Assembly (NCBI RefSeq): GCF_026810505.1
Contig: NZ_CP101750.1
Span: forward strand, 6,388,501 to 6,452,500
Length of the DNA: 64,000 bases
Direction of reading: 5' to 3'
Source of the DNA: Streptomyces sp. Je 1-369
Lineage (GTDB): Bacteria > Actinomycetota > Actinomycetes > Streptomycetales > Streptomycetaceae
Of this stretch, positions 34,080-50,100 are shown piece after piece. Position 1 is the stretch's first letter. Each line of letters opens with the position of its first letter. Made by a program: the position numbers and the translations under genes. A model generated the notes under the pieces. The model did not search any database. It was not told the DNA's origin and worked only from the letters and a program-made list of their open reading frames with translations.

Positions 34080-34253
34080 CACTTGATACCCCCCGAATGC
34101 GGCGAATTCCCTTGCCAAGTAGGGTGCTTGCCCGTCGCGGATCCCTACCCCCCGCGCACGCCCGACTACTCACCCTGCATAGTAGGGGCCGGGTCTTGCA
34201 ATGGAGGAACGGGGTTCGCGCCCCGACGTGCGGCGGGGGAGAAGCAGGCGCTC

Positions 34254-35783
34254 ATGGCATCACGGCGGGACGAGCTCAACGCGTACACCTTTGCGAAGAA
34301 GCGGACGTTGGCGGCATTTCTCCAGCCGTCGCCGACGGGGTCCGAAGAGGGTGCGCCGCGCCCTTTGCGAGCCTTCCTGCCGAGCGTGATCATGGGTGTC
34401 CTCGTTCTGGCGGTGTTCGGCGCCTGGGGGATGTTCCAGCCGAAGGCGCCGCCCGGCTGGGACGCGCCGGGCACCCGCGTGATCGTGGGAAAGGACTCGA
34501 CGACGCGGTACGTCGTACTCAAGACCGGTAAGAAGTCGCGCCTGCACCCCGTCCTGAACCTGGCATCGGCACGGCTGCTGATGAACGGCGCCGACTACAA
34601 GGTCATCCAGGTCGCCGACAGCATCCTCGACGCGGGCAAGCCGCCGCGCGGTCCCATCATCGGCATCCCTTACGCCCCCGACCGGCTCCCGTCCTCCGAC
34701 GAGGCGGGCAAGGCCAAGCGGTGGGCGGTCTGCGAGCAGCCGGGTTCCGGTGGCCGTACGACGCAGGAGGCGACGTTCGTCCTCGCCGACCGGGAAGCGG
34801 ACAAGATGGACGGCTCCCGGCGCCTCCACAAGGGCGAGGTGCTGTACGTGAAGACGCGCACGGGCACACGTCACCTCGTGGACGCGGCCGGAATGTCGTA
34901 CGAGGTGACGGGCGCCGAGGGGGACCTCCTCGCGGACGCGCTGGTGGGCCCGACCAGGAAGCCGCAACTGGTGACCAAGGAGTGGCTGGCCACGCTGCAC
35001 AGGGGCAACCCGATCCGGTTCCCGCAACTGCCCACGAGCGTGGGCGACCCGGCCGACGCGTCGGACCAGCTGTCGTCGGAGGAGAACCGGGTCGGCATGG
35101 TCCTGAAGGCGGAGACCGGCGAGGGCACCAAACACTTCGTGGTGCTTCCCGGCAAGGTCCAGCCGATCACCGAATTCACTGCCTGGCTCCTGACCAACTC
35201 CCCGCAGACGGCGCAGCTGAACATGAACGGTGAGGCTCGTACGGTCGGCCTCCAGGACTTCGCGTCCGCCGACGGCACCTTCGAGGGGGAGGCCGGTCAG
35301 TGGCCCCGCCACCGCACCGTCCAGGTCAACAGCGGACAGAGCGGTTCCGGTCGGGACACGGTGTGCAGTGTGCTGCGGAACGTGGATGACCAGGGTGGTA
35401 CGACGCTGAGCACGTGGGCCGGTCCGAAGTACCCGGCCGACATCGTGGCCGGCGGCACGAGTACGTACGTGACACCCGGAACGGGCCTGCTCTACACCCA
35501 GGTTCGTGGCACGCAGACGAAGACCGGGTCGCTCTTCCTCGTGACGGACACCGGCCTGCGGTACGCCGTGCAGGCCAACGGCGACAGCGACAGCGAGAAG
35601 TCCGACATCGGAGCGGACGGCAAGCAGCAGACGACGGACGGCAGCCCCGAACCCAGCGAGGCCCAAGTCAAGCTCGGCTACAAGAACGTCAGGCCCGCCA
35701 AGGTTCCCCTGCCCTGGTCCGACTTCCTTGCGAAAGGCCCCCGCCTCGACACCAACAGCGCACGGCAGCCACAGGGTTCCTGA
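34254..35783 (+). CDS. eccB: Type VII secretion protein EccB
   Basis: A 509-residue core component. The N-terminus MASRRDELNAYTFAKKRTLAA is diagnostic of EccB, followed by one membrane helix (VIMGVLVLAVFGAWGMF, about residues 47-63) and a large extracytoplasmic domain with repeats and paired Cys (WAVCEQP, TVCSVL). EccB forms part of the periplasmic side of the ESX complex. ATG at 34254, with a gggga/gagaag element upstream; divergent from eccE across a 174-bp gap. Confidence 0.95.
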   Translation: MASRRDELNAYTFAKKRTLAAFLQPSPTGSEEGAPRPLRAFLPSVIMGVLVLAVFGAWGMFQPKAPPGWDAPGTRVIVGKDSTTRYVVLKTGKKSRLHPVLNLASARLLMNGADYKVIQVADSILDAGKPPRGPIIGIPYAPDRLPSSDEAGKAKRWAVCEQPGSGGRTTQEATFVLADREADKMDGSRRLHKGEVLYVKTRTGTRHLVDAAGMSYEVTGAEGDLLADALVGPTRKPQLVTKEWLATLHRGNPIRFPQLPTSVGDPADASDQLSSEENRVGMVLKAETGEGTKHFVVLPGKVQPITEFTAWLLTNSPQTAQLNMNGEARTVGLQDFASADGTFEGEAGQWPRHRTVQVNSGQSGSGRDTVCSVLRNVDDQGGTTLSTWAGPKYPADIVAGGTSTYVTPGTGLLYTQVRGTQTKTGSLFLVTDTGLRYAVQANGDSDSEKSDIGADGKQQTTDGSPEPSEAQVKLGYKNVRPAKVPLPWSDFLAKGPRLDTNSARQPQGS

Positions 35784-35828
35784 GCCTTGTCACGCCTGAT
35801 GCCACCGACACAGAGGACAGAGGTAGCG

Positions 35829-37106
35829 GTGCCGCCGACGAGAAGAGTCCTGCTGGCCGGGGCCGCCATGGCCGCGGCGCTGAGCACGGCCACGGCCACG
35901 CCCACAGCCGCAGTGACGGCCACGCTGGTGGCTGCCGCCTCCGCCGAGGGCAGTGCACCGGTGCGTCTCACCGGCAACGGCGCGTGCCAGACCCCCGCCG
36001 AGCAGATCAAGGGCCGCCCCTGGCCTCTCCAGCGTGTGCTGCTGGATGAGTTGTGGCAGGACGGGAAGACGGGCAAGGGCATCCGGGTCGCCGTGATCGA
36101 CACGGGGGTGGACGACAAGAACCCGCAGCTCGCCGACGCGGTGGATGCCCGCGCGGGGCGTGACTACCTGACGAAGGGCAAGGGCGCGGACCCCACCAAG
36201 GACGAGGTTGGCCACGGCACGAAGGTCGCCGGCATCATCGCGGCCCGCCCGCACAAGGGGACGGGCTTCGTGGGCATCGCACCGGCCTCGACCATCATCC
36301 CGATCCGGCAGAACGACGCCGAGAACAGCGGGGACTCCGACACCATGGCGAAGGCCATCGACCACGCGGTCGCCGAGGGCGCCGACGTCATCAACATCTC
36401 CCAGGACACGACGAAACCCCTGTCCCGCACTTCGGCCCTGGCCAAGGCGGTACGTGACGCCCTCGACTCGGACGTCGTGGTGGTCGCGTCCGCGGGGAAC
36501 GACGGCCTGGACGGCAAGGTGAAGAACACGTACCCCGCCGCCTTCGACGGCGTGCTCGCGGTGGCGTCCTCCGACCGGAACAACGAACGTGCGGCCTTCT
36601 CACAGCCGGGCGACTTCGTCGACGTGGCGGCCCCCGGCGTGGACATCGTGTCCACCGTTCCTGGCGGGGGCCAGTGCACGGACAACGGCACGAGTTTCTC
36701 GGCCCCCTTCGTCGCGGGCGTGGCAGCCCTCCTCAAGTCCCGGCACCCGGACTGGAGCCCGGCACAGATCGCCACCCGGATCGAGCAGACGGCGGAGCGC
36801 TCCATCAACGGCCACGACAACTACGTCGGCTGGGGCGTGATCGATCCCGTACGCGCCCTCACCACCTCCGACACCACCTCGCCCGCGTCTTCGCCGACCC
36901 CGGACCCCGGCGTGTCGAAGGCCCCGCCCCCGGACACGGCGGCGTTCTCGCTCGCCGAGACCTCGCAGGAGCGCGCCGAGCGGTACGCGACGTACGCGGT
37001 CGGCATCACCGCGGTCGTGGTGGCGGTGATCGCGGGCACGGCGGCGGCCCTGCGCGAGGCCCGCAGAAGACGTGAGGCCCCGAGCAGAAGGGACCCGAGG
37101 TCGTGA
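35829..37106 (+). CDS. mycP: Type VII secretion-associated serine protease (mycosin)
   Basis: A subtilisin-family protease anchored by its C-terminus, 425 residues. Catalytic triad: D91 in AVIDTGVDD, H129 in GHGTKVAG and S289 in NGTSFSAP, with the oxyanion Asn in SAGNDG. There is a signal sequence (RRVLLAGAAMAAALSTATA) and a C-terminal helix (TYAVGITAVVVAVIAGTAAA) ending in an Arg-rich tail. Mycosins are required for ESX complex stability and function. I use GTG 35829 because of agagg about 6 nt upstream; TTG 35787 and ATG 35799 are alternatives. It overlaps the next gene (GTGA). Confidence 0.93.
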   Translation: MPPTRRVLLAGAAMAAALSTATATPTAAVTATLVAAASAEGSAPVRLTGNGACQTPAEQIKGRPWPLQRVLLDELWQDGKTGKGIRVAVIDTGVDDKNPQLADAVDARAGRDYLTKGKGADPTKDEVGHGTKVAGIIAARPHKGTGFVGIAPASTIIPIRQNDAENSGDSDTMAKAIDHAVAEGADVINISQDTTKPLSRTSALAKAVRDALDSDVVVVASAGNDGLDGKVKNTYPAAFDGVLAVASSDRNNERAAFSQPGDFVDVAAPGVDIVSTVPGGGQCTDNGTSFSAPFVAGVAALLKSRHPDWSPAQIATRIEQTAERSINGHDNYVGWGVIDPVRALTTSDTTSPASSPTPDPGVSKAPPPDTAAFSLAETSQERAERYATYAVGITAVVVAVIAGTAAALREARRRREAPSRRDPRS

Positions 37107-38605
37107 GCTTCGGACCACCTCCCTCCGTGTTCACCCAGTCGACGGTGGCAGCGGACCGCGCACGGAGACAACGCCGCCGACGCAGGGCGCTCGGGGCCGG
37201 TGTCGTGGTGCTGGTGCTCGCGCTGTGCACGGGCGGCTGGCTCCTGTGGCTGGGCCCGGACGACGCGGCCGACACGGCGCACCAGGACGGCAAGCCCTCC
37301 GTGGGCACCGCCTCCCAGGGGCGACTCGACATCAGAGAGACGGTGGAGAAGCGCCCGGAGAGCACCACCGGGCAGATGGCCTTCCGCTTCGCCGTCGACG
37401 ACATGAGCCCGGGGGAGGAGTACGAGATGCCGGGCACCTGGGCGACGGACAAGGTGCTGGCCAAGGGCATCAACAGAACGCTCGTGGGCTTCGAGGTCGG
37501 CAAGGACGTGACCACGGACGACGAGATCTGGCGCATCCCGCTGTCCGGCCCCATCTGCGGCGTGACGCGACACGTGACCGTGGAAGGCCGCACCGCGGTG
37601 CTCCACCGGGCCCAGAAGAACCCGGAGTCCCTCTGCAACCAGGTGGCGTTCGTCGACATCGACTCCGGCAAGAAGCTCTGGGACAAGGAGTTCCCCACGT
37701 CGGAGTCCGTCTTCGGGCAGGACGCGACGAGCGTGACGATGACGCGAGGCACGGTCGCCGTCGCATGGGGCGACGGTGCGACGGCGTACGACATGGACCG
37801 AGGGACCCGGCTCTGGCGGAACAAGAAGAGTGACGGTTGCACGTACCAGGGGCTGGCGGGCGGACGGGCTCTGCTGACGCTGCTGGCTTGCTCGCGGGGC
37901 AAGGAAGACATCACGTACCGAGTCCGGAACCTCGCACCGCGCACCGGCACCACCCGATGGACACATCAGGCCGCGGGCGGCGTCAAGGACGTCAAGGTGC
38001 TGTCCACCGACCCGCCGGTCATCGCCGTCGGCGCGGGCGACCTTGACCTGACGCACCTGTTCCCCCTCGACGACAGGGGGAAACGGCGGGCCACCATCGG
38101 ACTGGACGGCGGCCGCTACGAGGTCCGCTGCCGGGAACGTCACGACTACCCCGCCATCGACGACTGCCCCTCGACGGTGGTCAGTGACGACCAGGTGTTC
38201 CTCACGAGCCGCGAGGCCGAAGGAGCCAACTGGATGACGTCGTTCGACCTGTCGACGGGAAAGGCGGTCAGGAAGTTCGACGCCGGCCGCAACCAGCTCT
38301 TGTACCCCCTACGGATGAGCGGCGGCCAGGTTCTCGCGTTCCGGGAGAGCAGCGACCACATCACCCCCTTGGGAGTGGTGAGCCTGAATCCACGAACAGG
38401 GAAAGAGACTCCCTACTTCTCCTTCGGACTCCCACCCGAGGCCTGGACGCTCACTTCTCTGGAACTGTCGGACGTAGTCGTCCAGAATGGGCGAATTTTC
38501 TTCGGCGACTTCCGTGCCGAAGGACCGGTCGACAACGCCAAGGACACTCCAAAAGTGTCATGGCTTGTTCTGGGCATCGAAGGCGCAAGGAAGGCACCCA
38601 ACTGA
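37103..38605 (+). CDS. Membrane-anchored PQQ-like beta-propeller protein in the type VII locus
   Basis: A 500-residue protein: a short basic N-terminus (RARRQRRRRRALGAG), one membrane helix (VVVLVLALCTGGWLLWLG, about residues 34-52), then an extracytoplasmic domain with repeated strands typical of PQQ/BamB-like propellers (VDIDSGKKLWDKEF, YDMDRGTRLWRNKK, LAPRTGTTRWTHQA, FDLSTGKAVRKF, LNPRTGKETPYF). Five or more blades are visible. It is translated with mycP (GTGA overlap). Role unknown; a protein-protein interaction surface on the outer side of the secretion complex is inference. Confidence 0.82.
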   Translation: MSFGPPPSVFTQSTVAADRARRQRRRRRALGAGVVVLVLALCTGGWLLWLGPDDAADTAHQDGKPSVGTASQGRLDIRETVEKRPESTTGQMAFRFAVDDMSPGEEYEMPGTWATDKVLAKGINRTLVGFEVGKDVTTDDEIWRIPLSGPICGVTRHVTVEGRTAVLHRAQKNPESLCNQVAFVDIDSGKKLWDKEFPTSESVFGQDATSVTMTRGTVAVAWGDGATAYDMDRGTRLWRNKKSDGCTYQGLAGGRALLTLLACSRGKEDITYRVRNLAPRTGTTRWTHQAAGGVKDVKVLSTDPPVIAVGAGDLDLTHLFPLDDRGKRRATIGLDGGRYEVRCRERHDYPAIDDCPSTVVSDDQVFLTSREAEGANWMTSFDLSTGKAVRKFDAGRNQLLYPLRMSGGQVLAFRESSDHITPLGVVSLNPRTGKETPYFSFGLPPEAWTLTSLELSDVVVQNGRIFFGDFRAEGPVDNAKDTPKVSWLVLGIEGARKAPN

Positions 38606-38823
38606 CAGACCACACAGCCCAGTTGCGGTACGGGAATGACTAGAGTGGTGTACGGCATCACGAGTTGATGCCGCACGGGGGCGGCGCGGCGTCGCGGATC
38701 GCGTGTGTCGTCACACGCGAGACCTGACGCGACCCTTGCCCGCCAGAGCCGGGGGAGCCCTGGCACGGAGTCGAAACGAACAGCGGGTACGACCGCTGTC
38801 GGTGAATGAGGAGGGCAAGAGCG
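38606..38823 (+). promoter_or_regulatory. Structured leader upstream of the WXG100 pair
   Basis: Two hairpins lie in the 218-bp gap: cggcatca/tgatgccg (38653-38673, 5-nt loop) and a longer one in which cgcgtgtg/cacacgcg (38700-38719, loop tcgt) sits within an outer gcgtc/gacgc stem (38689-38730). A gaggag precedes the first start at 10 nt. No clear -35/-10 pair. Confidence 0.55.
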
Positions 38824-39156
38824 ATGAGCGTTGATTACAGCAATGACGATCTGACCAAACTGGCGGACAGGATCCGCAACTTCCACATGGATGTGAGCAA
38901 GCGCGTCACCTCGCTGAACACGGTCGTGGACATGATCCAGGCCGGCTGGAAGGGCGCAGCGGGCAAGGAGTTCGACACGCTTCAGCGCGGTGTGAACCAG
39001 CACCTCAAGAAGCTGCAGGACAACCTCGTCGACCTCGAAGACGTCATGCGGATGAGCGTCAAGGGCTTCGACAGCCACGAGCAGGAGCGGATCGCCCAGA
39101 TCCGCAAGGTGGACAACTCGTACGAGGTGCCCAGCCGGATCGTCGACCACGCCTGA
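38824..39156 (+). CDS. WXG100-family secreted protein (first of pair)
   Basis: A 110-residue helical hairpin protein with the WXG motif in the turn (G-W42-K-G44). N-terminal residues MSVDYSNDDLTKLADRIRNF and the helix after the turn (LQRGVNQHLKKLQDNLVDLEDV) match the EsxA/EsxB class, which form dimers exported by the ESX machinery. It lacks the C-terminal YxxxD/E signal, so it probably relies on its partner. ATG 38824 has gaggag 10 nt upstream. Confidence 0.93.
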   Translation: MSVDYSNDDLTKLADRIRNFHMDVSKRVTSLNTVVDMIQAGWKGAAGKEFDTLQRGVNQHLKKLQDNLVDLEDVMRMSVKGFDSHEQERIAQIRKVDNSYEVPSRIVDHA

Positions 39157-39189: not shown

Positions 39190-39498
39190 ATGGCAGAGAA
39201 CTTCGACCGCACAGCGGTCAATTACGACACCGTCACGACGGCGGCCACCGATGTGCGCAACACCGGCAGGAGCATCGACGAGGGACTCGAGAGCCTCATG
39301 CGCGAGGTGGCGCGAGTGGCCGAGACCTGGGACGGCGAGGCCAGGACCGCGTACCACGAGATCCAGCGGCAGAGCGAGACCGAGATGAACGCGATGGTGC
39401 ACAAGCTCCAGCGCATCGCCCGCCTCCTGGACGAGTCCGTCGTCGGCTACAGCGACACGGACAAGGGGAACGCGGCACGCTTCCGCATGCTGAGCTGA
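39190..39498 (+). CDS. WXG100-family secreted protein (second of pair)
   Basis: A 102-residue WXG100 protein with W47-D-G49 at the turn and a C-terminal export signal of the YxxxD type (Y87-S-D-T-D91). It is 33 bp downstream of the other WXG100 gene and presumably forms a heterodimer with it, supplying the signal recognised by EccC. A strong terminator follows. Confidence 0.94.
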   Translation: MAENFDRTAVNYDTVTTAATDVRNTGRSIDEGLESLMREVARVAETWDGEARTAYHEIQRQSETEMNAMVHKLQRIARLLDESVVGYSDTDKGNAARFRMLS

Positions 39499-39593: not shown

Positions 39594-39908
39594 TCACCCG
39601 ACGGCACCGGCCCCGTCCGCCGGCAGACCACCGTTCCGCGACGTCGGCTCCAGGTCGAACTCCCCGTCCCGCGCCCCGAGCACGAAGGCCCGCCACTCGG
39701 CCGCGGTGTACCGCAGCACGGTTCCGGGATCGAGCGACGACCGCATGGCAACGGCCCCCTCGGGCAGATAAGCGATCTCGACGCGCTCCTCGGCCTCCTC
39801 CGTGCCGGGCGCGCTGTGCCACTCGATGCCGGAGATATCCAGGGCGTAGAGCTCGTCCTTCTCCCGCTCCTTACGCGCCTTGACGTCCTCGTCCTGCCCC
39901 TCGCCCAT
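39594..39908 (-). CDS. DUF397 domain protein
   Basis: A 104-residue small protein with an acidic/basic coiled N-terminus and the DUF397 core: GIEWHSAPGT, VEIAYLPEGAVAMRSS, and TAAEWRAFVLGARDGEFD. DUF397 proteins in Streptomyces normally accompany a helix-turn-helix regulator; none is adjacent here, so this is an orphan copy. A damaged second copy of its 3' end is 0.6 kb to the right. Confidence 0.85.
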   Translation of the reverse strand: MGEGQDEDVKARKEREKDELYALDISGIEWHSAPGTEEAEERVEIAYLPEGAVAMRSSLDPGTVLRYTAAEWRAFVLGARDGEFDLEPTSRNGGLPADGAGAVG

Positions 39909-40229: not shown

Positions 40230-40273
40230 CGCAGAATTCTTGTGACCCTCAAAATGTCCGTCAGGCAGTCGTC

Positions 40274-40360
40274 GCCGGCCCTGTGCGCTGACAGCCCACC
40301 GTTCCGCGTCGTCGGCTCCAGGTCGAACTCTCCGTCCCGCGCCCGAGGACGGAAGCCCGC
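40274..40360 (-). pseudogene. Decayed duplicate of the DUF397 gene 3' end
   Basis: This 87-bp segment repeats 39606-39692 with several substitutions and a 1-bp deletion. Translated, it gives RDGEFDLEPTTRNGGLSA, matching RDGEFDLEPTSRNGGLPA of the intact gene, but the deletion separates it from the preceding FVLG. It is in the same orientation as the intact copy. Confidence 0.82.
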
Positions 40361-40426: not shown

Positions 40427-40972
40427 TTATCTTCCGCACTCGAACCGGTTCACCGTCTCCTTCATGTATGCGGCCATGAAACTTTTAATGTGCGCCCGCA
40501 TTTCGGAACCATGCTTTGGTGTTTCTGGGAGCTGCATGGTGAGAGTGAAGTAGTTCTTGCTGGATTTTTTGCAAGAGGCAGTTGCGATGGCTCCGTTATT
40601 TCCTACCACGGTCTCATACCCGGCCCTTGTCCGACGCGGGTCTGCCAGCCTGCTAATGGATTCTTCGGATGAGGCATAGTGCATGATATCGACTGAGTCC
40701 GACGACCAAGCGAATCTGAAACTCATGACAGGTTCGTCGTCGCTCAAGAGGTCACATGGAGCGGTACGGGTACCTGCATCGTCGAGACGGCTGTACTCGC
40801 TGAAGTCATCAGTTCTTTTTAGCAGCGGTTCCGTGTACCTCGTGTCAATCTTTGTTCCACAGATCTTTTGAGGGATTTTCGCGTCGGAATTGGCATCGCA
40901 CGAGGCCAAGCACATGGTGGTAAGCGCGACCAGAGGGATAAGGGAGAGCGCTGCGCTGCGTTGCGGGTTCAC
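40427..40972 (-). CDS. Putative lipoprotein, islet cassette gene 3
   Basis: A 181-residue protein with a signal peptide (LIPLVALTTMCLASC) whose lipobox places the acceptor at C25. The mature part has four further Cys (ICGTK, PCDLL, SCKKS, FECGR), consistent with disulphides outside the membrane, and no domain I recognise. The GTG starts 5 bp after the stop of the large cassette gene. It is the last gene of a three-gene unit. An immunity or receptor role for the upstream protein is speculative. Codon use is visibly less GC-biased than in flanking genes. Confidence 0.75.
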   Translation of the reverse strand: MNPQRSAALSLIPLVALTTMCLASCDANSDAKIPQKICGTKIDTRYTEPLLKRTDDFSEYSRLDDAGTRTAPCDLLSDDEPVMSFRFAWSSDSVDIMHYASSEESISRLADPRRTRAGYETVVGNNGAIATASCKKSSKNYFTLTMQLPETPKHGSEMRAHIKSFMAAYMKETVNRFECGR

Positions 40973-40977
40973 TATTT

Positions 40978-43083
40978 CTACTTTCCTGATACGTCGGCAG
41001 CTGTGTCAACGCCAGCGGTACTCGCCCGGTCGATCGCGTCTTGCGCTCCGTATTCGCTGCCTCCGTGCATCTTCCTCCATTGCGCCGCAAGTGCCATTAG
41101 TTGCTCATTTCGCACCTTGTACACATCGCGGTTGGTGTCAGCTTCCTTGTCGTCCAGACGATCCTGCTCATCCTTTTGCCATTTGCCGGCCACATAGTCA
41201 AATGCTTGTTGCGCGTCCTCGCTTCCTACCGGCAAGTAGCTGATGCCCTTATCGATAATCCATTTGCCCTTGACCTCTGCCGTTTCCGGGGGTGGTTCAG
41301 CCTGAGACCGCGCTTCTTCCAGGAAGCCAACCGTTCGACCGGCCCTGGTCAGAGAATCCTCTGGTTTCTCACCCTTTTCCGGCTTCTCGGCGTAGATGTC
41401 TGTCACCATTGCCTTGTTTATGCCGTGGTTCAGTTCGCCATAGGCGTCATCACTCTTGGAGACCTGCTTAAGTACCTCAAAGAGTTCGTGTTGCGGAATG
41501 GGTGATGTCTTCACTGCTACTGAGCTCGTGGCTGCGTGCACAGTGTCCCCATGGTTAACCAGGATCTTGGCCATCGGCTCGCGCAAGGATGATGGGAAGT
41601 CGTCACCGCTCTCGGACAGGTAAGTGATGGATGACTTGAATACTTTTCTGTTTTCGTCCGTATGCTCGACGAACTTGCCGTCTTCGTCACTCGACGAGAT
41701 GCCAGTAGCTGCGGCCTGCAGTGCGGCACCGAAGCCGACCCGGTCATCAGCGTCTGGAGCGGGAGTGTACGTGGAGGCCTTGGCGCCCTCGTGCACTTCC
41801 TGGATAACGCTCCAATCGCGATGCTGGCCGTCACCCACTCCCATGAGGTATGGGAGATTCTTGTCGGAGTTCAAGAATGATGCGGCAGTTTGCGGATCGC
41901 GGCTCATCACTCCGAGGACCCCGTCCAGTGGATCATTTGCAAACCACCCGGAAGTCTTACCGTTGTATGGGCCCTTGAGATCCCAGATGTCGGGATTCTT
42001 CTTCTCGGCGCTTATGATGTCATTTCCGACATCCTCGAGGAATTTACGGGAGAACCCATTCGCCTTATCGCCGGTCCCTGCCTCCATGAGGGTGACCAAG
42101 GACTGGTAGCCGCGTACCTTATCAAGGCGGGCACCATGGAAGTCCGTTTCGTAGCGACTCACTCCCGCCTTCTTCAAGTCAGCGTGCCATTCCTTGTACC
42201 ATTTGCTATCGGTGTTCTGCGTCGCCCTGGCCAGCGTATCCGCCAGGCCCGATTCGAGAGCAGAGTAGTCACCGCTATGTTTTGGGTCTTTGACATGCCC
42301 GAGGTCATTCAGCCTGTTCGATAGGGTGATGGTTCCACCGGGCCCCAGGCTGTCAAGCAGAGTTCTACTGAATACGCCGTTGTCGCTATTCTCCTTGAAT
42401 GCCCGCTTGAGGGCCGCGATTTCGCGTGCGGACGGATCCTTCCCTTCATTAATGCGGGTAAGAATATCGGCCGCTTTCTCTGCCTCGTGCGCAGCCTCGT
42501 AGTCCCCAATCTTCTTTCTGGCTTGCGCATTGAAACCGTTGAGAGTTCCGTCGCCAAGGTCCGAATCAATGACGACGGCCTCAAGGGAGATCTTGACCCC
42601 GGCATCGGCTTCGTCGACCGCCTCCACCGCCTTGCGAATATGTTCACTCCAGGAGGCTTCCAGTTCTGGAAGTCCTGGATCGTTGCGAGCTGCCTTGGCC
42701 GCGCTGGCGCTCGCCCTCTTGTAGTCGAAGCGGCAAACCCCTTGATCGGATACGTCCATTCCCGCATCATGAGCTTCTTTGCGTGCCTTCTTGACCGCAG
42801 CCTTCAGCTCGGAAAACTGTGAATGCGCATCGCGTAGCAGTGAAGCCACCGCTTTCGCTTCTGTCTGCGCTGCTTGAATTTCCTTCAGTGTGATGTCGAA
42901 ACGTTCGTTCGCTGCATTGGCACTCAGCCCCCGCCAGTCTGGACCACCGAGGGAAATCCCATGGACATCCCTTTTGTACTGCCCCTCCAGCGTCTTGAAT
43001 GAGGCAGCCATGTCATCCCACTTCTTGGCTGCTGTTGTGAGGGTCGATAGGTCGGTAGTCATGACTTCGTGGTAGCTGGGCAC
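40978..43083 (-). CDS. Large WXG-like N-terminal protein (DUF6571-like), candidate type VII substrate, islet cassette gene 2
   Basis: A 701-residue protein. The first about 110 residues form a WXG-like helical hairpin (PDW50-R-G52LSANAANERFD, flanked by long heptad-rich helices), then a helical linker and a large C-terminal region of about 500 residues with no motif I can name (LTRINEGKDPSAREIAALKRA, FVEHTDENRKVFKSSITYLSE). It resembles, from memory, streptomycete proteins annotated DUF6571. The GTG at 43083 (MPSYHEVMTTDL) has aagga about 9 nt upstream; ATG 43062 is an alternative. No signal peptide, as expected for a WXG-type substrate. GC and codon bias are lower than in the neighbouring secretion genes. 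Confidence 0.75.
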   Translation of the reverse strand: MPSYHEVMTTDLSTLTTAAKKWDDMAASFKTLEGQYKRDVHGISLGGPDWRGLSANAANERFDITLKEIQAAQTEAKAVASLLRDAHSQFSELKAAVKKARKEAHDAGMDVSDQGVCRFDYKRASASAAKAARNDPGLPELEASWSEHIRKAVEAVDEADAGVKISLEAVVIDSDLGDGTLNGFNAQARKKIGDYEAAHEAEKAADILTRINEGKDPSAREIAALKRAFKENSDNGVFSRTLLDSLGPGGTITLSNRLNDLGHVKDPKHSGDYSALESGLADTLARATQNTDSKWYKEWHADLKKAGVSRYETDFHGARLDKVRGYQSLVTLMEAGTGDKANGFSRKFLEDVGNDIISAEKKNPDIWDLKGPYNGKTSGWFANDPLDGVLGVMSRDPQTAASFLNSDKNLPYLMGVGDGQHRDWSVIQEVHEGAKASTYTPAPDADDRVGFGAALQAAATGISSSDEDGKFVEHTDENRKVFKSSITYLSESGDDFPSSLREPMAKILVNHGDTVHAATSSVAVKTSPIPQHELFEVLKQVSKSDDAYGELNHGINKAMVTDIYAEKPEKGEKPEDSLTRAGRTVGFLEEARSQAEPPPETAEVKGKWIIDKGISYLPVGSEDAQQAFDYVAGKWQKDEQDRLDDKEADTNRDVYKVRNEQLMALAAQWRKMHGGSEYGAQDAIDRASTAGVDTAADVSGK

Positions 43084-43127
43084 AGCGTTCGTTCCTTCTC
43101 TTTGGCTATCCTTAAAGGTTCAGAACC

Positions 43128-43577
43128 TCAGGTGATCTTGCTGATGTCGGACTCTCGCAGGATCTGGGATCGGATGCCGAGTTCATTACTATTGAAACTG
43201 ATGGAAGTGTCTCGCAGTGCGGAGCTTTCGGCGGCGAGTCTCTTTTTCAGTGACTTCACCTGTGTGCTCCAGGCTTTTTGTGCTTTATGTAGGGCAGGTG
43301 AAGTCAACCAACCGTCACCGTCCTTCGGCTTGAATGCTTTCACGGCATTTGCTGTATCTTCGTCGGCCACATCACCAGCTTTTTGAGTGTCCCTGAGTAG
43401 ATGCTCATCAATGGCTCTGGCAGCCTTCTTCTTTTCGGCAGGACTTGATGCAAAATCCTCACCCCCCTGGCCGCCGGACCCGCCGCCGTTGTGTGGGGAC
43501 GCTGTGTTCAATTGCATGTCGGCGTGCAGGTCCGTGGCCCTGTTTCGAGCCTGGCCCCACTCTTCTTCGAACGACAT
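43128..43577 (-). CDS. Small helical type VII-associated protein, islet cassette gene 1
   Basis: A 149-residue, charged, helical protein (MSFEEEWGQARNRATDLHAD) with a Gly-rich disordered segment at about residues 31-40 and a second helical block (LHKAQKAWSTQVKSLKKRLAAES). No WXG motif, signal peptide or membrane helix. It precedes the large gene by 44 bp in the same orientation; comparable small genes usually precede large WXG-like ones in Streptomyces, so a chaperone or partner role is plausible inference. ATG 43577 has aggagcgaggg upstream. Confidence 0.72.
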   Translation of the reverse strand: MSFEEEWGQARNRATDLHADMQLNTASPHNGGGSGGQGGEDFASSPAEKKKAARAIDEHLLRDTQKAGDVADEDTANAVKAFKPKDGDGWLTSPALHKAQKAWSTQVKSLKKRLAAESSALRDTSISFNSNELGIRSQILRESDISKIT

Positions 43578-43640: not shown

Positions 43641-44924
43641 TCACGCGGGCGGTCTGGTGTCCGAAGGGGCGCTGCGTGTGGAGCTACGCCGACGCGCCTG
43701 GTAGATCGCGAACACCGTGCCCAGGGTCACGGCGGCGCTGAGCCCCAAAACCGTCCAGAGCGTGTTGTCGTGTCCCTCGGAAGCTGCCGCCTTGGCGTCT
43801 GATTCATCCGCCTTCTTGCGACTTGCGCGGGTGCCGCTGCGGTCAGACGAGTGCGGAGCGGGGGATTTAGCTGCCGCTGCCAGGTCCGGCAGGGGGTACT
43901 CGTCGGCAGGACCAGGATCTCCAGGCTCCTTCAGCGCGATACGAGGTCGCACCGCCCCATACCCCACCGAGTCGTCCCGGCTCCAGCCGTCGTCGTTGCC
44001 CTGCATTGTGTTGATCATGACCCGCAGGACCTGGTTGTTCGTCCAGTCGGGGTGCTTGGACCAGATGAGGGCGGCGGAGGCGGAGGCGAGGGCCGTGCTG
44101 GCGCTGGTGCCGTGACCCTTGCAGAGTTCGGTGCCGCCGGCACACGCGTTCCAGATGTCGTCGCCAGGGGCGACCATGTCGACTTGCGGGCCCCATTGCG
44201 ACTCCTTGGTCCGTTCAACCTCTCGGTTGATCGCGCCAACCCCGACTACGCCGGGCGTTGCTGCGGGGTACTCCACCGCATTGCCCTTGTGAGCACTGTT
44301 GCCAACAGCTGCGAAGATCAACGTCCCCTTGTCGATCGCGTACTTGACGGCAGCGCTGAGTTCGGGCGTATTTACATTCGAGAGTCCGCGATGATTGGGA
44401 CTGCCCATGGAGATGTTGAGGATCTGGGCATCTGAGTCGACGGCGTAGCGGATCGCCTTGGACAAATCTCTTGAGTATGAGGAGAGTTGGTCGGGCTTGC
44501 CTGACTTTTCGTAGCTAGAGGGCATGCGGATGGGCAGAATCTTGGTGTCTGGCGCCAAGCCGTAGGAACCTGAAACCTTGCCACGAGCCCCCGTGCCCGC
44601 GATGAGCGCTGCGATGCCTGTGCCATGGCTGTCCCGGTCGGAGTGCTCGTCACCGGGGAGGTCCGAATAGTCCTTCCCGTCGAGAACCCGGCCCTGGAGG
44701 TCGGCGACCGTGTCATCGACTCCGGAGTCGATGACCGCGACGGTCATATTGCGCCCGGTGCTGATCTTCCACATCTCTTCGGCATGCATGGCGTCGAGGT
44801 GCCACTGCCGGGATCGCACAGTGTCGGCATGGGCTGGATCCGCAGTGACGCCCACCATGAGCAGGCCCAGGACTGCTGCCAGAGCAGTCCTGGAACGGAT
44901 GTCGCTCTTCCTGGTGAGGGGCAT
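43641..44924 (-). CDS. Second mycosin-type serine protease
   Basis: A 427-residue subtilisin with an N-terminal signal (TALAAVLGLLMVGVTADPAHA), triad D66 (VIDSGVDD), H100 (DSHGTGIA), S274 (GHGTSAST), oxyanion Asn in AVGNS, and a C-terminal membrane helix (LWTVLGLSAAVTLGTVFAIY) with a basic tail. Residues are intact, so it should be active. It is more GC-poor than the first mycosin and sits on the opposite side of the islet. ATG 44924 with aagga 7 nt upstream. A locus with two mycosins is common in streptomycetes; division of labour unknown. Confidence 0.92.
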   Translation of the reverse strand: MPLTRKSDIRSRTALAAVLGLLMVGVTADPAHADTVRSRQWHLDAMHAEEMWKISTGRNMTVAVIDSGVDDTVADLQGRVLDGKDYSDLPGDEHSDRDSHGTGIAALIAGTGARGKVSGSYGLAPDTKILPIRMPSSYEKSGKPDQLSSYSRDLSKAIRYAVDSDAQILNISMGSPNHRGLSNVNTPELSAAVKYAIDKGTLIFAAVGNSAHKGNAVEYPAATPGVVGVGAINREVERTKESQWGPQVDMVAPGDDIWNACAGGTELCKGHGTSASTALASASAALIWSKHPDWTNNQVLRVMINTMQGNDDGWSRDDSVGYGAVRPRIALKEPGDPGPADEYPLPDLAAAAKSPAPHSSDRSGTRASRKKADESDAKAAASEGHDNTLWTVLGLSAAVTLGTVFAIYQARRRSSTRSAPSDTRPPA

Positions 44925-44941: not shown

Positions 44942-46504
44942 TCAGTCGATGACTGGCGGGAGGGTGCGCCGGTTCTCAGGCTGCCAAGTTTCTTCGTCTT
45001 CGGAGAGGTAGTCCTGGCGGTCGGGCTCCTCGCTGCGTGGAGCGTTCCGCTGTTTGGCCGGAGGGGAGGGGGGCCGTCCCATAGCAGTTGAACGCGTCGT
45101 TTCGCCTGCCGCGGAGCTTCGTACCAAACCCGTACCACCAGGCGTGAAGGGACGTCCTTCGACACGACCGGGTTGGTGTGACTGCCGGCCGATCGCTCCG
45201 CCGGGTTCCCTGGTGAGACGCCGGCCGTCGACAACGCCCGGGCGGCCCAGGCTCGTCCCGCCACCGCCGGGGCCGGTCGTCGGGCTCATGGGCGGCCGGC
45301 CTTGCATGTGGTCCCCGCCAAACACATTGCTACGAGGCAGACCAGACGTCGGACGACCTTGACCCGGCGGTGTGGGACGGCCGCCGATGATGCCGGGATC
45401 CCTCGGCATGCGGTTACCGGGACCGTTGTGTGCGCTCTCACCCGTCGGAAGGAGAGGCGGACGCACCATGGGGGAGGGCCGACCTGGAGGCGGGGTGGTA
45501 GGTCCGGACTGAACGGGGGGTGAGCCGAACGGGGGTGGTGCCGTGCCGAGGGCAGGAGGCGTCACTGACTCAGGCCGACCCAGGGAAGGGGTGGGTCCGG
45601 GCGGGGCCTCCGACGGCGACGGCGACGGCGGAAGCGTTGAGACCCGGTCAATTCCCATGGCCACGGGATCAGGGTGAGGCGACTGCGGAACGTTCGACGG
45701 CGAGGGCCCGGGCGCGTACTCGGACGCCCTGACGGGGCCCGCATGGCTGGACGGTGAGTTGCTTCCGGCGCCACCCGGCGGAGAGGGCGGAGGAGGAGAA
45801 GAAGAGGAGTATTGGCCCGCTGCCGCAGCGCCGCCTCCCTCACCAGGTACTGCCTGGTAACTCTCCTCCTGGCGCCATCTACTCGGATTCCCATCATGCG
45901 CCGCCGGCGGCGCAAACGTAGGCGGCGTCACCCCATTCACCTGCTGCGCAGACTGCTGATACGTCTGCGCAAGCTTCCGCATCCGCTGCACCGCCTCCGC
46001 CTGCGCCGCCTCGATGCGTCCCTGCGCCGCGGCCGCATCCGACTTGGAGTCGCGGGTGACCTTGGCGGCGTCGGGGTCGTTGGGGGCCTTCTTGGCGGCG
46101 TCCATGTTCTTGTTGGCGGTGCGCAGGTCCGCCTTCGCCTGCGTCGTGTCCGAAGCCGGCGGCATCGACGCCTTCGCCTCGGCGATCGCCTGGGCGACCA
46201 CGCCCATCCAGCGCGACGCGACCTCGCTGTACTCCCCGAGGTACAGCGTGGCGCTCGCCGACTGGGTGCCCCATACGCGGAAGGCGTCGCCGCCCTCGCC
46301 CTGCCAGTGCAGGCCCTTCGTGTACGTCATGAGGTCGTCGCCGATCTTGGTGATCGTCGACGCGGCCCTGCCCAGCTTTCCGGCGAGTTGGGAAGCGCCC
46401 TCCGAACTCGCGGACTCCACCAGCGCGAGCAGCTGCTCGTGCGTCATGGACTCGAAGTCCGTGTGCGCGAGCTTGGGCGTGCCGCCCTTGGATCCCTCAG
46501 CCAT
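44942..46504 (-). CDS. WXG100/PPE-like N-terminal protein with a long proline-rich tail
   Basis: A 520-residue protein: a WXG-type helical hairpin (turn at HW67QG69EGGDAF), a second helical stretch to about residue 190 (QAEAVQRMRKLAQTYQQSAQQV), then about 330 residues of disordered Pro/Gly/Ser/Arg sequence. It resembles actinobacterial PPE-like/WXG proteins encoded beside EccC and is a likely secretion substrate or structural component. ATG 46504. It lies 17 bp upstream of the second mycosin in the same operon orientation. Confidence 0.82.
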   Translation of the reverse strand: MAEGSKGGTPKLAHTDFESMTHEQLLALVESASSEGASQLAGKLGRAASTITKIGDDLMTYTKGLHWQGEGGDAFRVWGTQSASATLYLGEYSEVASRWMGVVAQAIAEAKASMPPASDTTQAKADLRTANKNMDAAKKAPNDPDAAKVTRDSKSDAAAAQGRIEAAQAEAVQRMRKLAQTYQQSAQQVNGVTPPTFAPPAAHDGNPSRWRQEESYQAVPGEGGGAAAAGQYSSSSPPPPSPPGGAGSNSPSSHAGPVRASEYAPGPSPSNVPQSPHPDPVAMGIDRVSTLPPSPSPSEAPPGPTPSLGRPESVTPPALGTAPPPFGSPPVQSGPTTPPPGRPSPMVRPPLLPTGESAHNGPGNRMPRDPGIIGGRPTPPGQGRPTSGLPRSNVFGGDHMQGRPPMSPTTGPGGGGTSLGRPGVVDGRRLTREPGGAIGRQSHQPGRVEGRPFTPGGTGLVRSSAAGETTRSTAMGRPPSPPAKQRNAPRSEEPDRQDYLSEDEETWQPENRRTLPPVID

Positions 46505-46518
46505 CGTCTTGTGCCCCC

Positions 46519-46592
46519 GGTCCCCGTCCTCGTCCCCGTCTCAGTGCCCGTGCTCGTGCCTGCGTTCGTGCTCTTCCTCGTCCCCATCCCCG
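46519..46592 (-). repeat. Degenerate hexamer-type repeat between two secretion genes
   Basis: The gap is pyrimidine-biased on the plus strand, built of cctcgtccccgt-like units (period about 6). No gene. Confidence 0.6.
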
Positions 46593-46600
46593 TACGGTCA

Positions 46601-47131
46601 TCAGAGCGCCGTGTCCTTGTCCGTCGCCTTCGGGCCGGATCCATCGGAGCCGGAGCCGGAGCCTGAGCCGGAACCGCCGGGCCCCTGCGCGTACGGATCC
46701 CGATCAGGGTCGTAGTACTTCTCCGCCTCCGCGTTGATCGCCCGCATCCGCGCCCGAATGTCGTCCTCGAGGTTGTCGTAGCCCACTCGCGACGCATGGA
46801 CCGCAAGTCCGAGCCCCTCGATCTGGGCGCCCAACGCCTTCGAGAGCTTCTCCAGCTCGTCGTGCACGGTCGCGTACGAGTCGTAGAGGAACTGCGCCTC
46901 CTTGAAGTCCGCCGACCCCAGCTGCCTCCGCGACAGCCGGTCGGCGCCGACCCTGCCCGGCGCGGCCTCCGAACCCTCGAGCTCGGTGAGCAGGTCGTCG
47001 ACGCGCTTCTTGAAGCCCTTCATCGCGCTCGCCTGGACGTCCAGCGCCATTTGCGGGTTTACGCCGTAAAGGGTGTCGAACGACTTGTCCGTATCCGGCG
47101 TTCCGCCGTTGCCCCCGCTCGAACTCGCCAC
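46601..47131 (-). CDS. Type VII secretion-associated helical protein
   Basis: A 176-residue, mainly helical protein without Trp, so no WXG motif. Heptad-like helices (MKGFKKRVDDLLTELEGSEA, ATVHDELEKLSKALGAQIEGL) are followed by a Gly/Ser-rich acidic tail. It is adjacent to eccC in the same direction, 39 bp from it. Its genomic position suggests an ESX accessory protein; no function is recognised. GTG 47131 with ggagg 6 nt upstream. Confidence 0.78.
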   Translation of the reverse strand: MASSSGGNGGTPDTDKSFDTLYGVNPQMALDVQASAMKGFKKRVDDLLTELEGSEAAPGRVGADRLSRRQLGSADFKEAQFLYDSYATVHDELEKLSKALGAQIEGLGLAVHASRVGYDNLEDDIRARMRAINAEAEKYYDPDRDPYAQGPGGSGSGSGSGSDGSGPKATDKDTAL

Positions 47132-47169: not shown

Positions 47170-50100
47170 CTAGTAGTGGTCCGGGAGCCGCCCCACTTGA
47201 ATCAGGGCAGTCCCACGCTTTCGTGACACGAACGTTCCGCGACCCGGCGGCATCGGGCGGGCGCGGACATTTCCGAGAATGTCTCCTTCGCTCGGATCGC
47301 CCGACAACAGCACACCTTGCGCGCCCAGTTCCTTTACGCGCTGCATGAACGCCTCGTACATCGAACGTGAGGCTCCGGCCGAGCTCCGCGCGATGATGAA
47401 CTTGACGCCGACGTCCCGCGCGAACGGCAGGTGCTCGACCAACACGCTCAGCGGATTGGTGGAATTGGTGGCCACCAGTTCGTAGTCGTCGATGATGACG
47501 AACAGTTCCGGACCGTTCCACCAGCTTCGATCACGCAACTGCTGCGGAGTGATGTCGGGCTTGGGTGCCCGCTTCTCCATGAAGGTGGCGATGGCGTTCA
47601 TGTGGACGTCCATTGCCGACGCCATCGGGGCGTACTCCAGCAGGTGGTCCGCCGACACCGCCTCCAGCATGGTGCGCCGGTAGTCGCCGACGACGATGCG
47701 GGCCTGCGCGGGCGTGTATCTCTCCGCGATCTGCTTCGCGATGAGGCGCAGCAGGTTCGTCTTGCCCGATTCGCTTTCACCGAAGACCAGGAAGAATGGA
47801 TCTGTCTCGAAATCGACGAAGACCGGTTCCAGGTTCGTCTCGTCGATGCCGATGGCGACACCGTGCTGCGGGAACTCGAATCCCTTCGGCAGCTGGTCAG
47901 CCGGGAGTTTGCGCGGCAGCAGCCGCACCGTCGGGGCCGCGGGCCCGTGCCAGTTGCCCTTCACCGTCTCGACCAACTGAGCCGTCGCGTCGCTGAGGGC
48001 GGCGGGGTCGGGTGACGAGTCGACGCGCGGCATCGCCGTCATGAAATGCAGCTTCTCCGGGACCTGGCCGCGGCCGGGCACCCCGGCGGGGACGTTCATG
48101 GCGACCTTGCGGTCGAACTCCGAGTCCATGACATCACCGAGACGCAGCTCCAGACGTCCGAGCATCTGGTCCTTGAGCGCCGCCCGCACCTCCATGTAGC
48201 GCGACGCGGACACGACGACATGTACGCCGTACCCGAGGCCGCGACCTGCGATGTCGTTGACGACGCCCTCGAGCATCTCGTAGTCGTTCTTGAAGCTTCC
48301 CCACCCGTCGATGACGAGGAAGACGTCACCCCAGGCCTCACCGGGGAGCTGCCCCGCGGCGCGCTGGCGCCGATAGGTGGTGATCGAGTCGATGCCGTTG
48401 GCGCGGAAGAAGGCCTCGCGGCGGTTCAGGACACCGGCGACCTCCGCCACCGCGCGCCGCACCCGCTCAGGATCCAGACGGGAGGCCACCCCTCCCACAT
48501 GCGGCAGATCGGAGACCGAGGCCAGGCCCCCGCCGCCGAAGTCCAGGCAGTAGAACTGCACCTCGTGCGCGGTATGGGTCAGCGCGAACGACGTGATCAA
48601 CGTACGCAGCAGCGTCGACTTTCCCGACTGCGGTCCGCCGACCACCACCATGTTGCCCGCCGCGCCCGAGAAGTCGCTGTACAGCACTTCACGCTTCTGC
48701 TCGAAGGGCTTGTCGACCAGGCCCAGGGGAACGACAAGGCCCCCGGGGCGTGTGTAGTCGCCGGCGTGCAGGCCCCGCTCCGCGGACACCACGAGCCGCG
48801 GCATGAGCTGGTCCAGCGTCGGGGCCTCGTCCAGCGGCGGCAGCCACACCTGGTGCGCCGGCACGCCCTGCCCCTCGAGGCGGCGCACCACGACATCCAG
48901 CACGGTGTCGGCAAGCGCGTCGTCCTCCCTACGGGAGGACGCACGGAGCTGCCCAGTGTCCGGAGCCGTGTACGTCGCAGCAACCGGGGCCGCGGTGAAG
49001 AGTGCGGGCCTGCGATCGATGGGCAGCTGGGTCGACGCCGGGTCGGCGCCACCCGCGCGGTACACCCCGGAGACGTACGCCGCCTTGAAACGGGTCATCT
49101 CATCCGTACCGAACTTCAGGTAGCCGGAGCCCGGCACGGACGGCAGGTGGTAGGCGTCCGGCACACCCAGCGCCGTACGGGACTCCGAAGCGGAGAAGGT
49201 GCGCAGTCCGACGCGGTACGACAAGTAGGTGTCGAGCCCCCGCAGTTTGCCCTCCTCCAGGCGCTGCGAAGCGAGCAGCAGGTGCACACCGAGAGACCGG
49301 CCGATGCGGCCGATCTGGATGAACATGTCGATGAAATCGGGCTTGGCCGTCAGCAGTTCACTGAACTCGTCGATCACCAGGACGAGCGACGCCAAGGGGG
49401 CCAGGGGCGCACCCGCGGCGCGTGCCTTCTCGTAGTCGTGCATGTTCGCGTAGTTGCCCGCCGACCGCAGCAGCTCCTGTCGGCGCTGCAGTTCGCCGCG
49501 GATCGCGTCGCCCATGCGGTCCACGAGAGTGAGGTCGTCCGAAAGATTCGTGATCACCGCCGCGACGTGCGGCATGTCCGACATGCCGGCGAACGTCGCA
49601 CCACCCTTGAAGTCGGCGAGGACAAAGTTCAAGGTCTCTGAGGAGTGGGTCACGGCCAGCCCCAGGACCAGCGTGCGCAGCAGCTCGGACTTGCCCGAAC
49701 CCGTGGCACCCACACACAGGCCGTGCGGGCCCATGCCCTCTTGAGCCGCCTCCTTGAGGTCCAGCATGACCGGCCGGCCGTCCTCGCCCACCCCGATGGG
49801 GACCCGGAGCCGCTCGGCCGTCGAACGGGGCCGCCACGTGCGCGTGACGTCCACCGACCCCGCGTCCCCCAGATTCAGCAGATCGGTGAAGTCCAGGTTG
49901 GCGAGCAGCGGTTCGTCGTCGTCGCCCCCGCCCATGCGCAGCGGCGCCAGCTGCCGTGCCAGCGCCTCCGCGGCGGGCAGCGACAGCGTGTCCGGTACGC
50001 CTTCGTAGGCGACGCCACCGGTCGACTCCAGGAGCAGCTTGCCGGGCCGGGCGACCACGGAGAGGCCACCGCGAGGCTCATCCAGCTCCCCGCTGACCAC

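Follow-up and report, generated by a model that had tools for sequence, protein, structure and literature searches.

A three-gene cassette in the ESX (type VII secretion) locus of Streptomyces sp. Je 1-369 is best explained as a cargo module of the type VII (ESX) machinery, belonging to a family of such exchangeable modules in Streptomyces. The cassette was analysed within a 64,000-nucleotide stretch of DNA, here called the window, and encodes a small protein (P0003), a large protein (P0002) and a lipoprotein (P0001). Directly observed are the gene order, the modularity, the pairing of the C region of the large protein with the downstream gene, the covariation of parts, the shared distribution with EccC and, as a prediction, the membrane anchoring. 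That the triplet is modular cargo of a type VII secretion system (T7SS) is, in our judgement, very probable. Our best reading of the sequences, which we hold to be likely, is that it comprises a T7SS-exported polymorphic effector, a targeting partner and a membrane-anchored cognate (immunity) protein; on balance we also favour the view that the set is antagonistic, with an effector and its immunity protein.

Locus and base composition

The preliminary description had placed three co-oriented genes, with gaps of 44 and 5 bp, between a WXG100/DUF397 block and a second mycosin gene. The open reading frames were recovered exactly, with 44 bp between P0003 and P0002 and 5 bp between P0002 and P0001, and the neighbours were identified by their profile matches (Table 1). 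The triplet sits within a complete ESX locus, which also includes EccB, EccD and EccE. The GTG start of P0002 agrees with its homologues, the majority of which in A1 open with MPTYHEIM or similar.

Table 1. Features of the triplet and its neighbourhood, in window coordinates.
Feature	Position	Strand	Details
First mycosin	35787-37106	+	
Two WXG100 (Esx) genes	38806-39156, 39190-39498	+	PF06013, 52 and 64 bits; TIGR03930 above cut-off
DUF397 gene	39597-39908		PF04149, 40.6 bits
75-bp direct repeat	39602-39676, 40270-40344	no strand	copies 88% identical
P0001 gene	40427-40972	-	181 aa lipoprotein, family c2
Lipobox LASC (L22-A-S-C25)	40898-40909	-	C25, predicted lipid-modified cysteine; from sequence
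P0002 gene	40978-43083	-	701 aa, whole proposed effector, GTG start
C region, P0002 residues about 431-701 (tested as 450-701)	40981-41793	-	predicted all-helical
Middle region, P0002 residues 201-430	41794-42483	-	covered by DUF6571; swaps independently of N and C
N domain, P0002 residues 1-200	42484-43083	-	WxG helical hairpin and helices
W50-x-G52 motif	42928-42936	-	turn predicted to link helices 13-44 and 53-106; alignment and AlphaFold2 model
P0003 gene	43128-43577	-	149 aa, small protein, family c0
FNSNE motif, P0003 residues 128-132, near C-terminus	43182-43196	-	form [FLYIM]xxx[DE]
Second mycosin, immediately upstream of triplet	43641-44924	-	TIGR03921, 328 bits, above cut-off
EccC ATPase, ESX/T7SS locus	47170-51129	-	TIGR03924 and TIGR03925 above cut-off

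The lower GC content that had been claimed for the triplet relative to its flanks is borne out by calculation, at 0.53-0.57 against a mean of 0.706, with GC3 lower too. GC/GC3 values are 0.547/0.593 for P0003, 0.565/0.644 for P0002 and 0.533/0.626 for P0001; among the other 45 genes called at 100 aa or longer, the GC has an sd of 0.035 and a minimum of 0.604, and GC3 is 0.899 (sd 0.063, minimum 0.688). The triplet stretch of 3151 bp has a GC of 0.554, and equal-length stretches starting before 37001 or after 44000 never fall below 0.659. Low GC is a mild family-wide tendency too: the large gene lies below its flanks in 85% of 111 related loci, with a median difference of -0.038 and a difference beyond -0.05 in 32%. 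The 75-bp direct repeat, of which copy 1 is the end of the DUF397 gene and copy 2 is partial and lies 82 bp from the lipoprotein gene, is a possible footprint left by the arrival of the cassette.

Predicted features of the three proteins

The W50-x-G52 motif that had been described at the N-terminus of P0002 is present and near-invariant among 115 related proteins, with W at column 50 in 107/115 and G at column 52 in 114/115. The PPE (PF00823) and WXG100 (TIGR03930) profiles gave 17.9 and 16.5 bits on P0002, below their cut-offs of 26 and 44.85, and LXG, DUF3130 and DUF3958 gave no Pfam match in P0002 or P0003 at E<=1. The 500-residue region earlier regarded as nameless does have a name over much of its course, since Pfam DUF6571 (PF20211) matches residues 188-556 with 30 bits against a cut-off of 27; the family carries no assigned function, and no paper naming DUF6571 turned up in the literature library searched. 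Searches of Pfam, NCBIfam, PHROGs and PADLOC found no toxin family in P0002, and those of Pfam, PHROGs and PADLOC found none in three class-C proteins, although such a domain may escape these profiles. The AlphaFold2 model of P0002 has pLDDT block means of 75-94 over residues 451-700. We propose that the C region is the exchanged, putative effector part.

P0003 gave no Pfam or NCBIfam match at E<=1. All 107 of the 107 aligned partners contain [FLYIM]xxx[DE], the first residue being L, F, I, Y or M and the last being D in 100 and E in 7. The first position is aromatic in 44/107 and strictly Y in 1/107, and P0003 itself has FxxxE. This pattern appears to resemble the YxxxD/E and FxxxD export signals of T7SS, and P0003 is proposed as a candidate targeting partner of the large protein.

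The third protein had been called a Cys-rich lipoprotein, in agreement with its lipobox and with four further cysteines that are invariant among 33 relatives; the C25 column is conserved to at least 90% in A4. The genes downstream of the large proteins are mostly predicted to encode membrane-anchored products. A comparison of P0001 with the fold of Tsi3/Tli4-like immunity proteins gave no clear-cut structural match. We propose that P0001 may be a cognate immunity or receptor protein on the external face of the membrane.

Exchange of parts and tie to the ESX machine

Loci were picked by similarity to P0002 or from the P0002 match list (40 stretches), and the class counts are a biased census. 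Duplicate loci (L112, L113 and L114) and matches with an HMM score <200 or a length outside 400-830 were dropped. The class A/B anchors number 95, of which the 86 followed by c2, c16, c23 or c31 went into the pairing test and 79 into the junction test, where downstream genes of differing families were assigned an identity of 0.15. Gene calls in the fetched loci came from hexamer scores; some starts are wrong, which lowers the signal-peptide counts, and partners are possibly hidden (e.g. in L055).

That the genes should occur as a set agrees with what was found: a P0003-family gene lies immediately upstream of the large-protein gene in 107/115 related anchors, and within 1.5 kb upstream of 47/53 N-domain matches in 30 whole genomes. 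The closest relatives of P0002 are kept over almost their full length (116/120 listed at 50-57% identity), so that exchange is visible family-wide and not among the closest relatives. Among similar pairs from the 79 anchors, breaks were found at the N|mid junction in 10/107 and at mid|C in 17/99, none was found at partner|N, and C|downstream gene gave 0/37. The expectation of a C-terminus that varies while the N-terminus stays thus holds across the family, in which the large protein has a modular build and swaps its C part. In class C proteins the shared stretch is limited to about residues 1-200. Other bodies, with other downstream genes, are also found behind the same partner and N domain; as judged by eye they comprise a glycine-rich repeat body, a second type accompanied by a lipoprotein gene, and a body that is hydrophobic and rich in glycine.

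The family of the downstream gene was that predicted by the nearest C part in 85/86 cases, compared with 59 for N and 64 for mid, and this pairing test was repeated without close relatives. In partial Mantel tests, whose permutations ignore phylogeny, the P0003 family followed the N part (0.86, reached by 0/500 permutations), with 0.09 for mid (31/500) and -0.01 for C, and the lipoprotein followed the C part (0.60, 0/500), with 0.09 for N and 0.02 for mid. Such covariation is as expected if the one is a targeting partner and the other a cognate receptor or self-protection protein. Together with the pairing it lends support, at the level of sequence, to the earlier suggestion of an exchangeable cargo module with the small protein as partner and the lipoprotein as receptor or self-protection factor.

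A mechanism can be proposed in four steps. As the covariation and the motifs suggest, the small protein would bind the WxG domain at the N-terminus of the large protein, and the two together would present a composite export signal to EccC, with WxG on one chain and [FLYIM]xxx[DE] on the other. The ESX machine would export the large protein, possibly after processing by mycosin, a step backed by codistribution. Exchange and pairing point to a C-terminal helical region of about 250 residues that may act on other Streptomyces, at the external face of the membrane or in the wall zone, or that may instead recognise them. The lipoprotein, anchored to the external side of the producer's membrane, would bind the C region and protect the producer, in which case the C region would travel together with the gene for the lipoprotein.

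The foremost alternative dispenses with a toxin. An exported alpha-solenoid ligand and a matching lipoprotein receptor would signal between relatives as these grow or sporulate, in kin recognition or in development, and the polymorphism would then reflect matching of self and non-self. The helical body looks non-enzymatic, no toxin domain was found in the profile searches and the lipoprotein covaries with the C region; moreover, Streptomyces ESX reportedly affects development and sporulation, the link to development being described for S. coelicolor and S. scabies (PMC8401907). However, one partner and N domain bear varied bodies and downstream genes, which fits toxins better than a single receptor-ligand pair, and the tandem and unpaired downstream genes look like immunity genes: a second downstream-family gene occurs in 8/115 anchors (the same family in 5), and of the 20 c2-profile matches across 30 genomes, 10 (including short or weak ones) do not lie downstream of an N-domain protein. 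We consider signalling unlikely, though by no means negligible.

Those unpaired matches are also left unexplained if the lipoprotein serves as a tether at the surface or as a secretion factor and the large protein is kept on the producer surface for a wall or envelope function, and so is the switch of downstream family along with the C region. The lipoprotein does adjoin and covary with the large protein, and a gene of the second-mycosin cluster lies immediately upstream of the partner gene in 14/115 anchors, but we regard a tether as improbable.

Export by the ESX machine is also in line with the distribution of the family. Genome searches scored the best candidates per genome, 16 in the N-domain search and 6 in the second. 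Profile A2 (N domain) found matches in 131/199 Streptomyces genomes and in 12/197 genomes of the class, all 12 being Streptomyces. The domain is present in 131/184 Streptomyces genomes with a complete EccC, compared with 0/15 of those without, and 9/53 copies lie within 15 kb of eccC, where 0.31 were expected. This patchy spread, the tie to EccC and the recombination of parts already disfavour an old, ordinary housekeeping operon that stands in the ESX locus by chance and owes its low GC to weak selection, a reading that we judge very improbable even though near relatives are kept over their full length, the fetched locus also contains tuf/fusA and rpsJ/rplC in 17/115 anchors, and GC is commonly below the flanks.

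Relation to known systems

Effector-immunity pairs are much better described for the T7SSb of Firmicutes than for T7SSa, and to our knowledge little is known of Streptomyces ESX cargo beyond EsxA and EsxB. Among T7SSa substrates, the mycobacterial PE/PPE and Esx heterodimers have a WxG hairpin on one chain and a YxxxD/E-type signal on the other, with adjacent genes. The triplet likewise has WxG and a signal-like motif on separate chains from adjacent genes, whereas PF00823 remains below its cut-off on P0002 and P0003 is without a Pfam match.

The genus-wide module family gives a concrete candidate list of T7SSa substrates and effector-immunity pairs, and its members without a known domain are material for structural work. 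The triplet may help to reveal the type VII cargo of soil Streptomyces, and its parts look to be swapped like those of weapon-antidote sets. If true, this would be additional protein-based antagonism in Streptomyces, beside the umbrella toxins, whose gene set differs from the triplet. Umbrella toxins are protein weapons that Streptomyces direct at competitors (PMC11062931).

For the T7SSb LXG effectors of Streptococcus intermedius, TelC/TipC with the partners Lap1 and Lap2 (PMC6193138, PMC9600955), small partners bind an N-terminal helical domain, one with FxxxD, and are essential for export (shown for TelD); the C-terminal part is variable, and TipC is a membrane-anchored immunity protein whose inhibitory part lies in the wall zone. 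The triplet resembles this arrangement but lacks a recognised LXG or DUF3130/DUF3958, has one partner gene and not two, belongs to actinobacterial T7SSa (ESX) and has an effector activity that is only putative. The T7SSb lipase set of S. aureus, TslA/TilA with TlaA1 and TlaA2 (PMC10730906), similarly combines small helical partners, an effector and a lipoprotein, with TilA binding and inhibiting TslA. In contrast to P0002, with putative targeting at the N-terminus and no enzyme domain found, TslA is a lipase with a C-terminal targeting domain, and TilA, unlike P0001, is a DUF576 protein.

Closer in taxonomy are exported alarmone synthetases that have been linked to T7SS in Streptomyces and Amycolatopsis, where one from Amycolatopsis bears an LXG domain (PMC12691689). 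Some of these toxin-like genes in Streptomyces also adjoin T7SS and putative immunity genes; theirs, however, is a catalytic SYNTH domain. The T7SS-delivered polymorphic toxin systems of Zhang et al. 2012 (PMC3482391) share an N-terminal trafficking domain, an exchangeable C-terminus, cognate immunity genes and, in actinobacteria, WXG-bearing toxins. The triplet differs from them in having no recognised toxin family, an N domain confined to Streptomyces among the genomes searched, exchange at two internal points and, in the family, a downstream protein (c31) that is kin to the effector's own C region. Tentatively, Streptomyces ESX might serve as a weapon or as a channel for kin recognition, with a repertoire of three-part exchangeable cargo specific to the genus, and c31 an anchored copy that would replace one subunit of the effector's own assembly and so give self-protection. 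The relation of c31 to the C region has an hhalign probability of 99.7 (E 2e-25), and c31, which is usually membrane-anchored, is nearest to its own effector class in 12/13.

The cassette and its ESX locus

The window is part of a Streptomyces chromosome, and Pfam and NCBIfam matches identify a complete ESX locus in it, adjoined by rpsO and pnp. From the PQQ_2 gene onwards the order is two WXG100 genes, DUF397, the triplet, mycosin 2, genes for proteins of 520 and 176 aa, EccC and EccD. The triplet encodes a 149-aa partner (P0003), a 701-aa large protein (P0002) and a 181-aa lipoprotein (P0001), and the preliminary description gave its reading frames, spacing, strand and neighbouring genes correctly. 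The low GC reported there also holds: nowhere in the window is GC lower, and the GC3 of the three genes is 0.59-0.64, whereas the 45 other genes average 0.90. A 75-bp direct repeat (88% identical) is perhaps a trace of the cassette's arrival: copy 1 is where the DUF397 gene ends, and copy 2, a partial one, lies just past the cassette end. The 520-aa and 176-aa proteins between mycosin 2 and EccC matched no Pfam or NCBIfam family; such proline-rich proteins, without Pfam family, recur beside a mycosin (loci with clusters c9-c11-c3), also outside the ESX locus.

Positions of features in the window
Feature	Position	Strand
EccE	32739-34118	-
EccB ORF	33948-35783	+
Mycosin 1	35787-37106	+
PQQ_2 (BamB-like) protein, immediately after mycosin 1	37103-38605	+
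75-bp repeat, copy 1	39602-39676	
75-bp repeat, copy 2	40270-40344	
Lipoprotein P0001	40427-40972	-
Large protein P0002	40978-43083	-
Partner P0003	43128-43577	-
176-aa and 520-aa proline-rich proteins	44942-47131	

Related proteins and loci

A protein collection search (7997 candidates scored) gave 554 relatives of P0002 at E<=0.001. The best 120 comprise P0002 itself, three proteins at 72-81% identity and 116 at 50-57%, and in most the alignment covers 95-100% of its length; every organism named among the relatives listed and the fetched loci is Streptomyces. Residues 188-556 of P0002 match DUF6571 (Pfam). Its AlphaFold2 model (24 sequences; pLDDT 80, pTM 0.64) is mostly helical and begins with the WxG hairpin. 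With P0002 as query, relatives at E<=1e-10 were found in 114 of 199 Streptomyces genomes; the match extends along the whole protein in some and is confined to residues 1 to ~200 in others, which are 437-490 aa long.

Genes were called and proteins clustered in the window and 119 loci, leaving 115 large proteins after removals. A gene of the P0003 family lies directly upstream of 107 of these (median gap 38 bp); the remaining eight are in L055, L051, L102, L098, L073 (gene 10), L121, L122 and L131, with the partner one gene further upstream in L121 and L122. Large proteins of 500-734 aa (n=38) are followed by a P0001-family lipoprotein (c2) in 33 cases, c116 in three and c23 in one, and one is a split gene; those of at least 735 aa (n=57) by c16 (17), c23 (14), c31 (13), c2 (8) or other/none (5); and the short class (n=20) by c37 (10), c43 (9) or c185 (1). 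In L064, L067, L076 and L104 the large gene is two ORFs, left as found, reflecting frameshift, sequencing error or decay. The c31 protein (13 anchors, including L066, L069, L079, L084, L094, L105 and L120), whose N-terminus is usually hydrophobic, is related to the C-terminal region of the large protein itself.

The pairing also appeared in a profile search of 30 near-complete Streptomyces genomes in which neighbourhood was not a selection criterion. The N domain (residues 1-200) turned up 53 times, in 22 genomes, and the partner 52 times, in 21. In 47 cases the two are no more than 1.5 kb apart on the same strand with the partner first, and in 44 of these the distance is at most 134 bp. Across the class, the N domain occurred in 12 of 197 genomes, all Streptomyces (1 of 90 genera).

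P0003 matched no known family in Pfam or NCBIfam. All 107 aligned partners carry, near the C-terminus, a hydrophobic residue (L 59, F 43, I 3, Y 1, M 1) four before an acidic one (D 100, E 7). According to PMC9600955, export of S. intermedius TelD needs the FxxxD of the Lap1 protein LapD1, a motif likened there to the YxxxD/E of mycobacterial substrates.

Of 199 Streptomyces genomes, 184 have a complete EccC (TIGR03925 at E<=1e-100). The N domain occurs in 131 of these 184 and in 0 of the 15 lacking a complete EccC (P 3e-8, phylogeny ignored). Of the 53 N-domain matches, nine have a complete EccC within 15 kb, against 0.31 expected, and the other 44 are elsewhere. Among the 115 anchors, 13 have EccC in the fetched locus, and in 14 the gene immediately preceding the partner belongs to the mycosin cluster. 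Seventeen have tuf/fusA and rpsJ/rplC in their locus (L040-L045, L047, L052, L053, L055, L056, L058, L060, L065, L070, L104 and L109), and the ribosomal protein region of Streptomyces is apparently an insertion hot spot for these modules.

Exchange of parts within the large gene

Pairwise comparison makes switch points visible in the large proteins. Two proteins of a single locus, L073_8 and L073_10, share 98-100% identity up to residue 200, 88% over 201-250 and 17-40% beyond, and have c16 and c31 downstream. For L116_4 and L117_5, from one genome, identity is 90-100% up to residue 400, 76% over 401-450 and 0-38% after that; their partners are near-identical and their downstream genes differ.

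Breaks were defined as at least 75% identity on one side and at most 45% on the other (79 anchors). There were none between partner and N domain, 10/107 between N and the middle region (201-430), 17/99 between middle and C region (450-701), and none at the junction of C region and downstream gene (0/37 and 0/4). Taking the downstream family from the anchor with the nearest C region gives the right answer in 85 of 86 cases (N 59, middle 64), and again in 85 once relatives of more than 60% mean identity are left out (N 22, middle 44). Of 75 pairs with N identity above 80%, 30 have C identity below 40%, 27 of these with different downstream families; the remaining 45 all share the downstream family. 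Partial Mantel correlations were 0.86 for partner and N domain (79 partners) and 0.60 for lipoprotein and C region (41 lipoproteins), other partials being at most 0.09. Linkage adds to both correlations; alone, it would not leave both gene borders intact with breaks inside the gene.

Putative role and short relatives

Judged from sequence, the anatomy of the module is that of a putative exported polymorphic effector with a partner and a cognate, mostly outward-facing membrane protein. It resembles TelC/Lap/TipC and TslA/TlaA/TilA in way of working, although the families of neither are recognised in the triplet. We favour antagonism as the role of the putative effector, because one front end carries several different bodies, each body having a downstream gene of its own. 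Downstream genes also occur in tandem and unpaired, which again argues for antagonism over its main rival, a role in recognition. The literature searched yielded no earlier description of the exchangeable module family. For alarmone synthetases, toxin-like Streptomyces genes that are linked to the T7SS and accompanied by putative immunity genes were noted earlier (PMC12691689), and T7SS antagonism in this genus is therefore not a new idea.

In three short large proteins (L133, L135 and L148; 437-490 aa) the partner and N domain are as in P0002 modules and are followed by other bodies, in none of which a Pfam search found a family. Read by eye, one goes with a lipoprotein gene (c43), one is glycine-rich and repeat-like with c37 and c27, and one is hydrophobic and glycine-rich. 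The C-terminal domain of the L133 protein is also found in shorter proteins of 272-319 aa (P0129, P0156, P0166 and P0240), possibly stand-alone cassettes or mis-annotated starts.
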